NCBI GenBank assembly: GCA_027335345.1
Contig: DAHWOF010000171.1
Location: 1-44,953, forward strand
Origin: Granulicella sp.
GTDB taxonomy: Bacteria; Acidobacteriota; Terriglobia; Terriglobales; Acidobacteriaceae
Length of the DNA: 44,953 bases
Direction of reading: 5' to 3'
Positions 19,728 to 34,310 of this stretch are shown in pieces. Position 1 is the first letter of the stretch; each line of letters starts with the position of its first letter. The position numbers and the translations under genes are program-made. The notes under the pieces are model-generated. The model ran no database searches, had not been told where the DNA came from, and saw only the letters and a list, made by a program, of their open reading frames with translations.

Positions 19728-19827
19728 TGTGCCGGGTCCTACGCGACGTATTCCCGCCAACCCCGCCAGGTCCGGAAGGAAGCAACGGTAACGGGTCGAT
19801 ACGGGCGCAGTAGGGAAACCCGGTACA
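19728..19827 (+). ncRNA. ffs: Signal recognition particle RNA (bacterial small type, 4.5S)
   Basis: About 100-nt RNA that binds Ffh and directs membrane-protein ribosomes to FtsY. The apical signature CAGGTCCGGAAGGAAGCA, with the GGAA tetraloop and the asymmetric loops, is at about 19767-19784. The ends pair: TGTGCCGGGT at 19728-19737 with ACCCGGTACA at 19818-19827 (one G-U). There is no Alu-domain extension, so this is the small bacterial form. A -10 box precedes it by the right distance and a T-run follows directly. Confidence 0.95.
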
Positions 19828-19833
19828 TTTTTT
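19828..19833 (+). terminator. T-tract after SRP RNA
   Basis: Six T residues directly after the terminal stem of the SRP RNA, so the RNA's own stem can serve as the terminator hairpin. Confidence 0.55.
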
Positions 19834-25137: not shown

Positions 25138-25222
25138 TGGTGCGGGAGAGGGGAGTTGAACCCCTACGCCTTTTGGGCACAGGCTTCTAAGACCTGCGTG
25201 TCTGCCATTTCACCACTCCCGC
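25138..25222 (-). tRNA. tRNA-Leu (anticodon UAG)
   Basis: Reads GCGGGAG...CTCCCGC for the 7-bp acceptor stem, with discriminator A and an encoded CCA (25138-25140). The anticodon loop CTTAGAA gives UAG, and the long variable arm TGCCCAAAAGGCG marks a class II tRNA. The T-arm sequence GGGTTCAACTCCC is intact. It decodes CUA and, by wobble, other CUN codons. The encoded body without CCA is 25141-25222. Confidence 0.97.
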
Positions 25223-32331: not shown

Positions 32332-33330
32332 AAGTACTCCAGCCAACCATGACGGGCGAAAAGGGAGTGCCCCTCGGGGTGGCCAAACACGATAATGAGG
32401 CTCCGGGCGCTGAGAACTGTCCCCGGGCCGCGGCCGCACGTAGTATACGACGCGCGAGTGGCAACGAACAGATTCCCGAGAACGGCGGAGAGTCGAGAAG
32501 TGCTTTATGCCCTGACCCTCTGGCATTCCTCTGTGTTCTAGATCATGGAAGAGATGACGCCGGCGACGGAAAAATTCTCCAGGCTACATCGAGCCTGATC
32601 ACGGCGTAGGCGGGAGATGACTCAAGCCGCGACGGTTGGAGTCCGGATGCCCTTCGGCTCTGCGCTGCCGGGAGGCTTCTCAGAACCGTCCCAGTTGCAA
32701 AAGCTGGCAACAAGAGCGGGAGTGTGGGTGAGTGAGACAGGGAAGCGTGTTCAATGCCGAAGGCTCATTTCTCGCCGATGATTTGCCTGTGGCTTCTCCC
32801 TTTAAACCGCGAGCCTCTTTTGCGGATGGCTGGAACGGGAAGGGTGGGGCACCTGGTTTTGGCCAGAGGTTGCGGATGGGCATGACGCCCGGCGCTGTCA
32901 GAGACGCGGCCGTCGGCAGGATTCGCTTGGGGATGGATCCGCATCGAGATTCCATCTGCCGTGCAGCAATAGGCCGCAATATGAGATGGCGTGGTGGAGT
33001 CGATGGGTCTGCCGCTGATCGTCTGCCGCGGAACATTCAGTCCGGTGAGGCAGCGATTGACACGGCGCGGCTTGTGGGACGAATTCGATCCGATCGCATT
33101 GGCCGGTCGCAGTTTTCTGTTGCTGCTTCGCTGACGATCCCTCTGGACAGATCCGACGCCCGGTAGCTCTCCGAAGGAAGATTCGCGCGCAGTGATTTTG
33201 ACGTGTGTGGGGCATGGCTCTTCGGCTTTGTTGGCGATGAAGGATTGAGAGATCCGAACATGGTCAGAAGGTGATCTGCGGAAGGACGGGTGTGTGGAGG
33301 AAAAAATCGGCTCGTGACCATCTTTTTTTC
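32332..33330. other. Long non-coding spacer before the small-RNA candidate
   Basis: About 1 kb with no convincing gene. Frames such as 32732-33166 (plus) and 32898-33215 (minus) have biased, non-conserved-looking composition. GTGGGGCA occurs at about 32846 and 33209, resembling 532 in another spacer. No tRNA, tmRNA, RNase P or 6S-like core was recognised. Confidence 0.45.
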
Positions 33331-33359
33331 TTGACTCTTCGACGCAGGAAAACTATACC
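33331..33359 (+). promoter_or_regulatory. Strong sigma-70-type promoter with UP-like T tract
   Basis: TTGACT (33331-33336), exactly 17 bp, TATACC (33354-33359), with a T-rich tract directly upstream (33322-33329). This predicts a start near 33366, precisely before the first hairpin of the small-RNA candidate. Confidence 0.65.
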
Positions 33360-33365
33360 TTCGAT

Positions 33366-33501
33366 AGCTGCTCTCTACAGACAGAGTAGCGTCGATGTTC
33401 ACCATCGATTGGGAGCGCAGGCAAACGCAACCAAGGCAAAGCACGAAAGAAAAAGGCAACACACCCAGGGAACGCTCTTGAAGCGTTCCCTGATGTGTTT
33501 T
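33366..33501 (+). ncRNA. Candidate small RNA (possibly dual-function, 28-codon ORF)
   Basis: Predicted ~136-nt transcript in the 1.25-kb spacer upstream of rsmE. Hairpin 1 is 33367-33374 with 33383-33390 (8 bp, one G-U, 8-nt loop), hairpin 2 is 33392-33397 with 33403-33408 (6 bp, 5-nt loop), then an unpaired A/C-rich stretch (33410-33457), then the terminator hairpin. An ATG at 33395 opens 28 codons rich in Arg, Lys, Gln and Glu (opens MFTIDWERRQ) and the TGA (33479-33481) falls inside the terminator loop. No homologous RNA family is recognised. It could be a trans-acting sRNA, a small-protein mRNA, or an attenuator for rsmE, although rsmE has its own -10 box. Confidence 0.5.
33458..33501 (+). 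terminator. Rho-independent terminator of the small-RNA candidate
   Basis: Arms 33458-33476 and 33482-33499 pair over about 17 bp (AACACA and CAGGGAACGCT sides, one small interruption) with a 5-nt loop CTTGA, then TTTT at 33498-33501. On the minus strand a CTTTTTC follows after the stem, so it could work both ways. Confidence 0.65.
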
Positions 33502-33569
33502 CAGCGCCTCCTCAAGTGTCGTGAGAAGACGCGAATCGATACGCCGAATGGCTTCTTGCGACCAAGCAG

Positions 33570-33575
33570 TATTCT
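33570..33575 (+). promoter_or_regulatory. -10 box before rsmE (leaderless candidate)
   Basis: TATTCT ends six nt before the ATG at 33582, so transcription would start at or next to the start codon. There is no Shine-Dalgarno and no -35. Confidence 0.4.
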
Positions 33576-33581
33576 GGACCC

Positions 33582-34310
33582 ATGACGAGAAGACGGTGGA
33601 TTGCCGATACATGGACTGAGACCAGCGCAAGCTTGCGGGGAGATCAGGCGGCGCATCTTGCGCGTGTCCTGCGGGCGCAGACGGGGCAGGTTTTTGATGT
33701 GGTGGCGAATGGATTCCTGCATCGCGCGGAGGTGGTTTCGGTCTGTGACAATGAGGTGGTGTTTGCTTTGAAGGAGCAACTGGAAGCGGAGGTCTCTCTG
33801 CGAGTCCACCTTTTGATGGCTGTCTTCAAGTTCGATCACATGGAGTGGGGTATGGAAAAGGCTACCGAGCTGGGCGCAGCTCGCCTCTCTCCGGTGATCG
33901 CGCGAAGGACGGAGAAGAATCTGGCCCATGCCGCCGCCAAACGCGTGGAGCGTTGGAGAAGGATTGTACGGGAAGCTGCGCAACAGTCGCGGCGCAGCGA
34001 TGTGCCGGTTGTGGACGATCCGGTTGCGTTGAAGGTGGCGCTGGGTGGAGTGAGCGCAGAGAAGAGACTTCTTCTGGCGGAGACCGAGCAGCAAAACTCG
34101 CTACGGAACGAACTGGCCCGCGAGCCGCTGCGTGAAAACCTCCCGGTAGCGCTGGCGATAGGGCCAGAGGGCGGATGGACGGCCGAAGAGATGGCGCTAT
34201 TCGGCCAGAACGGATGGAGGCCAGTGACACTTGGACCCAGGATCCTGCGCGCCGAGACGGCGGCCATCGCCGCTCTGGCGGTCTGCGCGGCGATGTTGCA
34301 GGGGTCTTGA
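33582..34310 (+). CDS. rsmE: 16S rRNA (uracil-1498-N3)-methyltransferase
   Basis: SAM-dependent SPOUT methyltransferase of 242 residues that methylates U1498 in the decoding centre. It has an N-terminal PUA-like domain (RGDQAAHLARVLRAQTGQVFDVV) and the SPOUT domain with MEKATELGAARLSPVIARRTEKN, EAAQQSRRSDVP, LAIGPEGGWTAEEMALF and the knot-forming LGPRILRAETAAIAALA. These are textbook RsmE blocks. No Shine-Dalgarno lies before the ATG, and a -10 box six nt upstream suggests leaderless translation. Confidence 0.95.
   Translation: MTRRRWIADTWTETSASLRGDQAAHLARVLRAQTGQVFDVVANGFLHRAEVVSVCDNEVVFALKEQLEAEVSLRVHLLMAVFKFDHMEWGMEKATELGAARLSPVIARRTEKNLAHAAAKRVERWRRIVREAAQQSRRSDVPVVDDPVALKVALGGVSAEKRLLLAETEQQNSLRNELAREPLRENLPVALAIGPEGGWTAEEMALFGQNGWRPVTLGPRILRAETAAIAALAVCAAMLQGS

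Follow-up and report, generated by a model that had tools for sequence, protein, structure and literature searches.

An apparently independent small-RNA gene upstream of rsmE in Granulicella, now non-coding and most likely descended from a micropeptide mRNA

Upstream of rsmE in a Granulicella genome lies a compact unit with its own promoter and terminator. We consider it probable, with real room for doubt, that it specifies an independent RNA of about 135 nt that is now non-coding, derives from a probable dual-function mRNA and acts in trans via AGGCAA repeats. The unit was studied within a stretch of 44,953 nucleotides, the window, to which all positions refer. Its parts are as follows.

33323–33329 and 33331–33336, plus strand: T tract and −35 element TTGACT, of which TTGAC is unchanged in all 27 genus loci.
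33354–33359, plus strand: −10 element TATACC, 17 bp 3′ of the −35 element; a CTATAC block is kept in most loci of the genus and family.
33366–33501, plus strand: predicted RNA of about 136 nt, judged non-coding here (fold z-score, covariance model R1, frame test).
33367–33390, plus strand: 8-bp hairpin P1 at the 5′ end; both-sided changes in 4 of 9 pairs.
33392–33408, plus strand: hairpin P2 (TCGATG/CATCGA); 100% paired on alignment A2, with one-sided changes only.
33411–33443, plus strand: 33-nt core GGGAGCGCAGGCAAACGCAACCAAGGCAAAGCA, with a mean identity of 99.2%.
33419–33424, plus strand: AGGCAA motif 1, in the loop of a weak GCG/CGC hairpin, probability of being unpaired about 0.99.
33434–33439, plus strand: AGGCAA motif 2, probability of being unpaired 0.67–0.98.
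33454–33459, plus strand: AGGCAA motif 3, adjoining the 5′ side of the terminator, with its last bases pairing in the terminator stem.
33458–33501, plus strand: intrinsic terminator; both-sided changes in 5 of 16 pairs.

On one side of the unit is a thiolase gene (start 32331, minus strand) and on the other rsmE (33582), about 1.25 kb apart. Both identities were confirmed by NCBIfam, and the thiolase gene was matched in 20 of the 27 genus loci, where flanks were short. The original prediction had placed here a promoter with 17-bp spacing and an upstream T tract, a start near 33366, hairpins, an A/C-rich linker between P2 and the terminator, and the terminator itself, and all of these were found in their predicted places. 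A weak point is the −10 element, as TATACC matches TATAAT at only four of six bases; a consensus promoter scanner, which demands T at the sixth −10 base, reported no promoter at this site. At gathering scores Rfam placed no family on the unit, and even at an E-value of 5 no family matched the region 32450–33620. Elsewhere in the window Rfam recognised only a bacterial small SRP RNA (19730–19828, plus strand) and a tRNA-Leu (25138–25222, minus strand).

The 136-nt RNA has a predicted fold of −51.9 kcal/mol (z = −4.89), and none of 200 shuffled sequences was as stable. When the 171-nt stretch carrying the unit was searched for in 28 genomes of the genus, it was matched in 27 with E-values of 1.2e-14 or better; the best match was partial in two (G025 and G027), and the sole miss was a genome only 54% complete (G021). 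Promoter, P1, P2 (except in L034), core and terminator are common to the aligned genus loci, the unit's own promoter and intrinsic terminator being present and conserved in 27 of 27. The compensatory changes that had been set beforehand as a test of the prediction were present: base-pair changes on both sides affected 9 pairs (23 cells) against 4.2 pairs in shuffled alignments, with 0 of 500 shuffles as high, and 95.1% of structure cells were paired compared to at most 46.7% in slid controls, both on 20 of the 27 loci. A second measure, the number of further pair types, showed no excess (17 vs 17.8 in shuffles). The covariation comes from P1 and the terminator, while P2 varies on one side only and the three pairs of the central GCG/CGC helix show no variation. 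The three predicted hairpins recur with the unit across the genus, and in P1 and the terminator pairing is kept by covariation. The first alignment (A1) had 26 rows, because L027 is nearly the same as L026 and was omitted; in it L034, which lacks P2, was misaligned, and P2 was shifted in L024, L032 and L033. Model R1 and the pair counts are based on alignment A2, which comprises 20 of the 27 loci (L009, L024, L027, L031, L032, L033 and L034 omitted), and the pairing of P2 on A2 is therefore flattered, since these seven loci include those with a misaligned second hairpin. Being invariant, the central GCG/CGC helix offers no covariation evidence for or against its pairing.

The most conserved part of the unit is the core. 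Over 351 genome pairs its mean identity was 99.2%, compared to 62.2% for the promoter spacer, 37.3% for the upstream flank and 40.4% for four-fold sites of rsmE; the core is nearly frozen while silent sites are close to saturated. Changes within it include single-base indels, and 9 of the 27 genus loci lack one A. Scanning named genomes for an 18-nt segment of the core yielded 35 stretches, in 21 of which model R1 recognised the whole unit. These were titled Granulicella (including G. mallensis, G. paludicola and G. sapmiensis), Bryocella elongata or Acidobacteria, and one (L136) Verrucomicrobia. The other 14 had no unit and came from assorted unrelated bacteria and from two further acidobacterial bins. 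One Granulicella metagenome-assembled genome (G026, contig C212) held a second, non-coding copy resembling that of group g61 (L133), which may be contamination.

The unit lies directly upstream of rsmE on the same strand in all 27 Granulicella genomes; beyond the genus, this holds for 46 of the 50 loci that were read. This arrangement would suit a cis-acting leader or attenuator whose terminator governs read-through into rsmE, but we regard such a role as improbable. The gene has a box of its own, TATTCT at 33570–33575 (plus strand), which lies outside the RNA and 6 nt 5′ of the rsmE ATG, and a −10-like box of the form TATN(C/T)T stands 6–10 nt before the ATG in 27 of 27 genus loci. Moreover, eight genomes of g51, g58 and g90 were looked at, and in none of them is the unit upstream of rsmE; the two are, for example, 305 kb or 75 kb apart (G302, G324), about 3 kb apart with opposite strands (G150), or on different contigs (G124). 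Judged from these arrangements, rsmE is not an obligate partner of the unit, and the original view of an independent small-RNA transcription unit in a gap of this size, with a separate −10-like box before rsmE, is upheld. In Granulicella the data support a complete, independent small-RNA gene; since the unit is beside rsmE in every genus locus, it may also have a local role there. The rsmE promoter itself appears to be of the leaderless type in Granulicella (window 33570–33582).

It had also been proposed that the RNA is dual-functional or a small-protein gene, with a 28-codon ORF from the ATG at 33395. The ATG and an in-frame TGA in the terminator loop are indeed there, and the 28-aa sequence is identical in L001, L009 and L010, which are themselves near-identical loci. 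The frame, however, is not kept across the genus. The alignment of the ATG in 25 of 27 loci is explained by its place in the P2 stem, and the frame from ATG to core was split 15/5/5 over the three possibilities, with apparent ORF lengths of 18 to over 65 codons. Together with the single-base indels inside the core, and with a 28-aa product that had no NCBIfam match at an E-value of 1 and only a chance-level Pfam match (E 0.24), this leaves translation of that ORF hardly credible.

The core does contain a sequence, GGGAG, that by homology appears to be a former ribosome-binding site; no usual start codon follows it any longer. Within 12 nt 3′ of GGGAGCGC none of ATG, GTG, TTG, CTG, ATT, ATA and ATC occurred in any of the 27 loci. 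GGGAG is itself invariant in 27 of 27 and is followed by ACG at the old ATG spacing, and ACG is found at about the same position in 3 of 10 g48 loci (L071, L099 and L104), so that a short product from this non-standard start, or a decoy RNA that binds the 30S subunit, could be envisaged. Both are very unlikely in our view: the A that is absent in 9 of 27 loci lies directly behind the ACG, between the core and the next motif the frame is random (10/9/8 over 27 loci), no kept frame follows the ACG, and it is lacking in the other seven g48 loci, in g61 and in the g51 form. Comparison of the loci thus indicates that the Granulicella unit is non-coding now.

Outside Granulicella the unit looks different. 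Across many further genera of the family, as well as in the loci read from four additional families of the class, it carries an ORF for a Lys/Ala-rich peptide of 12–32 aa (MATKKAAKKA...KKK). This peptide differs from the product of the 28-codon ORF, and the descent from its mRNA had been missed in the original prediction. A search of 300 family genomes with model R1 (E 0.1) gave matches in 106 genomes and 25 of 79 genera. From the 86 matched genomes outside Granulicella we read 50 loci: in 36 an ORF, for example MATKKAAKKAPAKKAAKKAAKKK, stands behind GGGAGAATAG or a close variant, and 14 had none (ten g48, three g61, one g51). A pattern of ribosome-binding site plus MATKK start was found in at most 236 of 300 family genomes and at most 67 of 79 genera, which are upper figures because it also matches some genes for DUF6496 proteins. 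A strict unit pattern hit 28 of 396 genomes of the phylum, all in the family of the window, though it misses units in other families that were found with model R2.

The micropeptide ORF is under clear purifying selection in the coding units. The 57 distinct coding sequences specify 13–27 aa with 49% Lys and 33% Ala. Counted from codon 6, since the first five codons are fixed by the search pattern, differences at codon positions 1, 2 and 3 numbered 201, 63 and 791, and 72.8% of changed codons were synonymous compared to 24.3% expected. Twenty non-overlapping pairs gave the same picture (11/4/66; 62 synonymous codons and 13 others). Three of the micropeptides matched no Pfam or NCBIfam family at an E-value of 1. 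Shorter peptides of 13–17 aa, mostly ending in KKH, were seen in L102, L105, L118–L123, L169, L186–L188, L190 and L192, and this group of genera has a different second hairpin (TCCATG...ATGGA). In L124–L132 (for instance L126, minus strand) DUF6496 proteins have a micropeptide-like, lysine-rich MATKK tail behind a GGGAG-type site; a common origin of this tail and the micropeptide is possible.

Are the coding and non-coding units homologous? Model R2 was built only from the promoter-to-start regions of 30 coding units, and it matched all 41 non-coding loci tested, including window 33330–33425 at E 2.2e-6, which argues that they are. In 40 hand-chosen genomes R2 matched at an E-value of 1 in 6 of 6 within the family and 13 of 34 outside it. 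Ten of these loci were read, four within the family and six outside, the latter from four other families of the class, and in all ten a K-rich ORF of 12–32 aa follows directly. Five of the six outside matches had E-values of 0.015–0.04 and rest on the K-rich ORF behind them, which is absent from the model; the other seven outside matches had E-values of 0.04–0.46. Because all six out-of-family loci that were read encode K-rich peptides, the coding state is most likely older than the non-coding one.

Comparison of these loci indicates that the ORF was lost repeatedly while the rest of the unit was kept. Promoter, hairpin, GGGAG, AGGCAA and terminator persist in ORF-less units of Granulicella, of the g48 and g61 loci read, and of one g51 species. 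An rpoB tree covered 29 of 30 genomes; G318 gave no match, and the fragmentary row L283 forms a long branch. On this tree the non-coding state requires four changes, one each in g1 (Granulicella), g48, g61 and the one g51 species. A single non-coding clade was rejected (p-AU 2.9e-8; 1.3e-56 without g61). The RsmE tree also gave four changes but kept a single clade as possible (p-AU 0.165 for all, 0.522 without g61); this shorter tree is too weak, and the loss count was therefore taken from rpoB. Four losses follow if a lost ORF was never regained.

A peptide that had moved elsewhere was also looked for. All 24 matches listed for a free-standing replacement in Granulicella, from 11 of 28 genomes, lay in open frames of at least 84 aa. 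Matches to the MATKK pattern occurred in seven Granulicella genomes; the six that were read lay in open frames of 79–121 aa, and all four of those scanned were DUF6496. In 13 other genomes of the non-coding groups, eight of them read as non-coding, no replacement was found, while the query did find the peptide in five of the six coding controls.

The Granulicella core resembles the 5′ and 3′ UTRs of a coding unit joined together with the ORF missing. Its second half, CAACCAAGGCAAAGCA, occurs letter for letter in the 3′ UTR of the coding g51 units L181 and L182, and its first half differs from their 5′ UTR in three bases only (CGC in place of AAT), followed by ACG for ATGG. In these two units a direct repeat, CAACCAAG, flanks the ORF, and excision between its copies would give a product close to the Granulicella core. 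L100 offers a rival route through an AGGCAAA repeat; of 10 loci tried, the others fitted worse. The resemblance holds with either joint.

Promoter and terminator are common to the coding and non-coding forms, so one may ask whether only these matter, for example as an insulator, the RNA being a functionless remnant. Such a DNA-level or transcriptional remnant is unlikely, as the most conserved block is located between promoter and terminator, where 99.2% identity is held at saturated neutral distance, and the pairing of P1 has been maintained through compensatory changes. Instead, the loss of the ORF in four lineages with the rest kept suggests that the RNA most likely performed a role of its own from the start, and that in the ancestral form it may act apart from the peptide.

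This function may run through the AGGCAA repeats. From GGGAG onwards the motif occurs 2.9 times per RNA in Granulicella, against 0.22 in shuffled sequences, and 1.7 and 2.3 times in g48 and g61, against about 0.2 each. In coding units it is present in 50 of 61 3′ UTRs, compared to 0.9 in simple shuffles. Abundance alone is no proof of binding, because the motif is partly inherited from the UTRs. In the modelled fold of the window RNA, GGCAAA of motif 1 is located in a hairpin loop, motif 2 is mostly free and motif 3 largely paired. Five of the 10 g48 RNAs were folded one by one, and in each of them GGCAAAG makes up a 7-nt hairpin loop. These five (L071, L077, L097, L099 and L104) have a GCGGU/ACCGC-type hairpin of variable stem sequence around it, and in L099 AGGCAAAG is also found in the terminator loop. 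As raw group values, the probability that GGCAA is unpaired exceeds that of the rest of the linker in g1 (0.68 vs 0.51), g48 (0.64 vs 0.48) and the g51 form (0.81 vs 0.50), but not in g61 (0.52 vs 0.57). A conserved target with perfect 13-nt pairing is unlikely, because a search of 28 Granulicella genomes showed no enrichment of perfect 13-nt complements of the core (13 extra sites vs 12 for the control); short pairing seeds at AGGCAA are possible. The core may also resemble the 16S rRNA region around the RsmE target.

Taken as a mechanism, the ancestral mRNA would have had a promoter of apparent strength, followed by a 5′ hairpin, a GGGAG site, a Lys/Ala micropeptide ORF, a 3′ UTR with AGGCAA and an intrinsic terminator. 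In Granulicella the ORF would have gone, so that the two UTRs adjoin. We infer that the RNA is transcribed and that its ancestor was dual-functional, and the AGGCAA repeats would be docking sites, at which the RNA either titrates an RNA-binding protein or pairs through repeated short seeds; its stability would come from the 5′ hairpin and the terminator. Peptide and RNA may share one partner, the peptide for example loading or compacting the RNA or its titrated protein; that the RNA alone suffices would be explained if they do.

Few dual-function RNAs are known, and it is seldom clear which of the two halves is essential. By description, the unit is similar to SgrS/SgrT and other RNAs of this kind in its small size, its independent termination and its short ORF, and differs in phylum and type of peptide. 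A precedent is SgrS, reported to be a dual-function RNA that lacks its peptide in certain species (PMC4021124). Measured against SgrS, the Granulicella form has no translated short ORF, its frame being random and a usual start codon lacking behind the former ribosome-binding site in 27 of 27 loci, and the ancestral form has a short ORF that is under protein-level selection (57 coding sequences). Sponge RNAs of the CsrB/RsmZ type are structured, terminated RNAs that carry several copies of a short GGA motif, some in hairpin loops. Our unit is alike in having a repeated short motif, partly in hairpin loops, in a structured and terminated RNA, but the motif is AGGCAA instead of GGA. The Acido-1 and Acido-Lenti-1 RNAs (RF01686, RF01687) are candidate structured non-coding RNAs of Acidobacteria (PMC2864571). 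They share with the unit that they are structured acidobacterial candidates, and differ in that no Rfam family matches the unit at an E-value of 5. In open-licence PubMed Central text on acidobacterial small RNAs and small proteins, PMC2864571 and PMC5900883 included, and in a search for the peptide sequence, no account of the unit was found.

Bacterial histone H1-like and other lysine-rich proteins (Hc1/Hc2, AlgP) are rich in Lys and Ala. The micropeptide shares this composition with them and with DUF6496 proteins, which here also begin with MATKK; it differs from all of these in having only 12–32 aa without another domain and an mRNA with conserved leader and terminator. Tryptic proteomics would shred such a Lys/Ala peptide, and ordinary ORF callers would skip its gene. 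A widespread gene for a Lys/Ala peptide of 12–32 aa is thereby brought to light in a major soil phylum.

For the family, evolution has in effect performed a repeated knock-out: the peptide would have been removed in four lineages, and the RNA stayed, almost frozen in one of them. The RNA's own function can be tested by comparing Granulicella, which has the RNA only, with coding relatives that have RNA and peptide. More tentatively, and as a possibility that we would not yet favour, the unit may represent a class-wide acidobacterial dual-function RNA, a strongly promoted polycationic-micropeptide mRNA combined with an AGGCAA sponge, from which the peptide was dropped at least four times. If this is true, a single gene family would show the conversion of an mRNA into a regulatory RNA in replicate.
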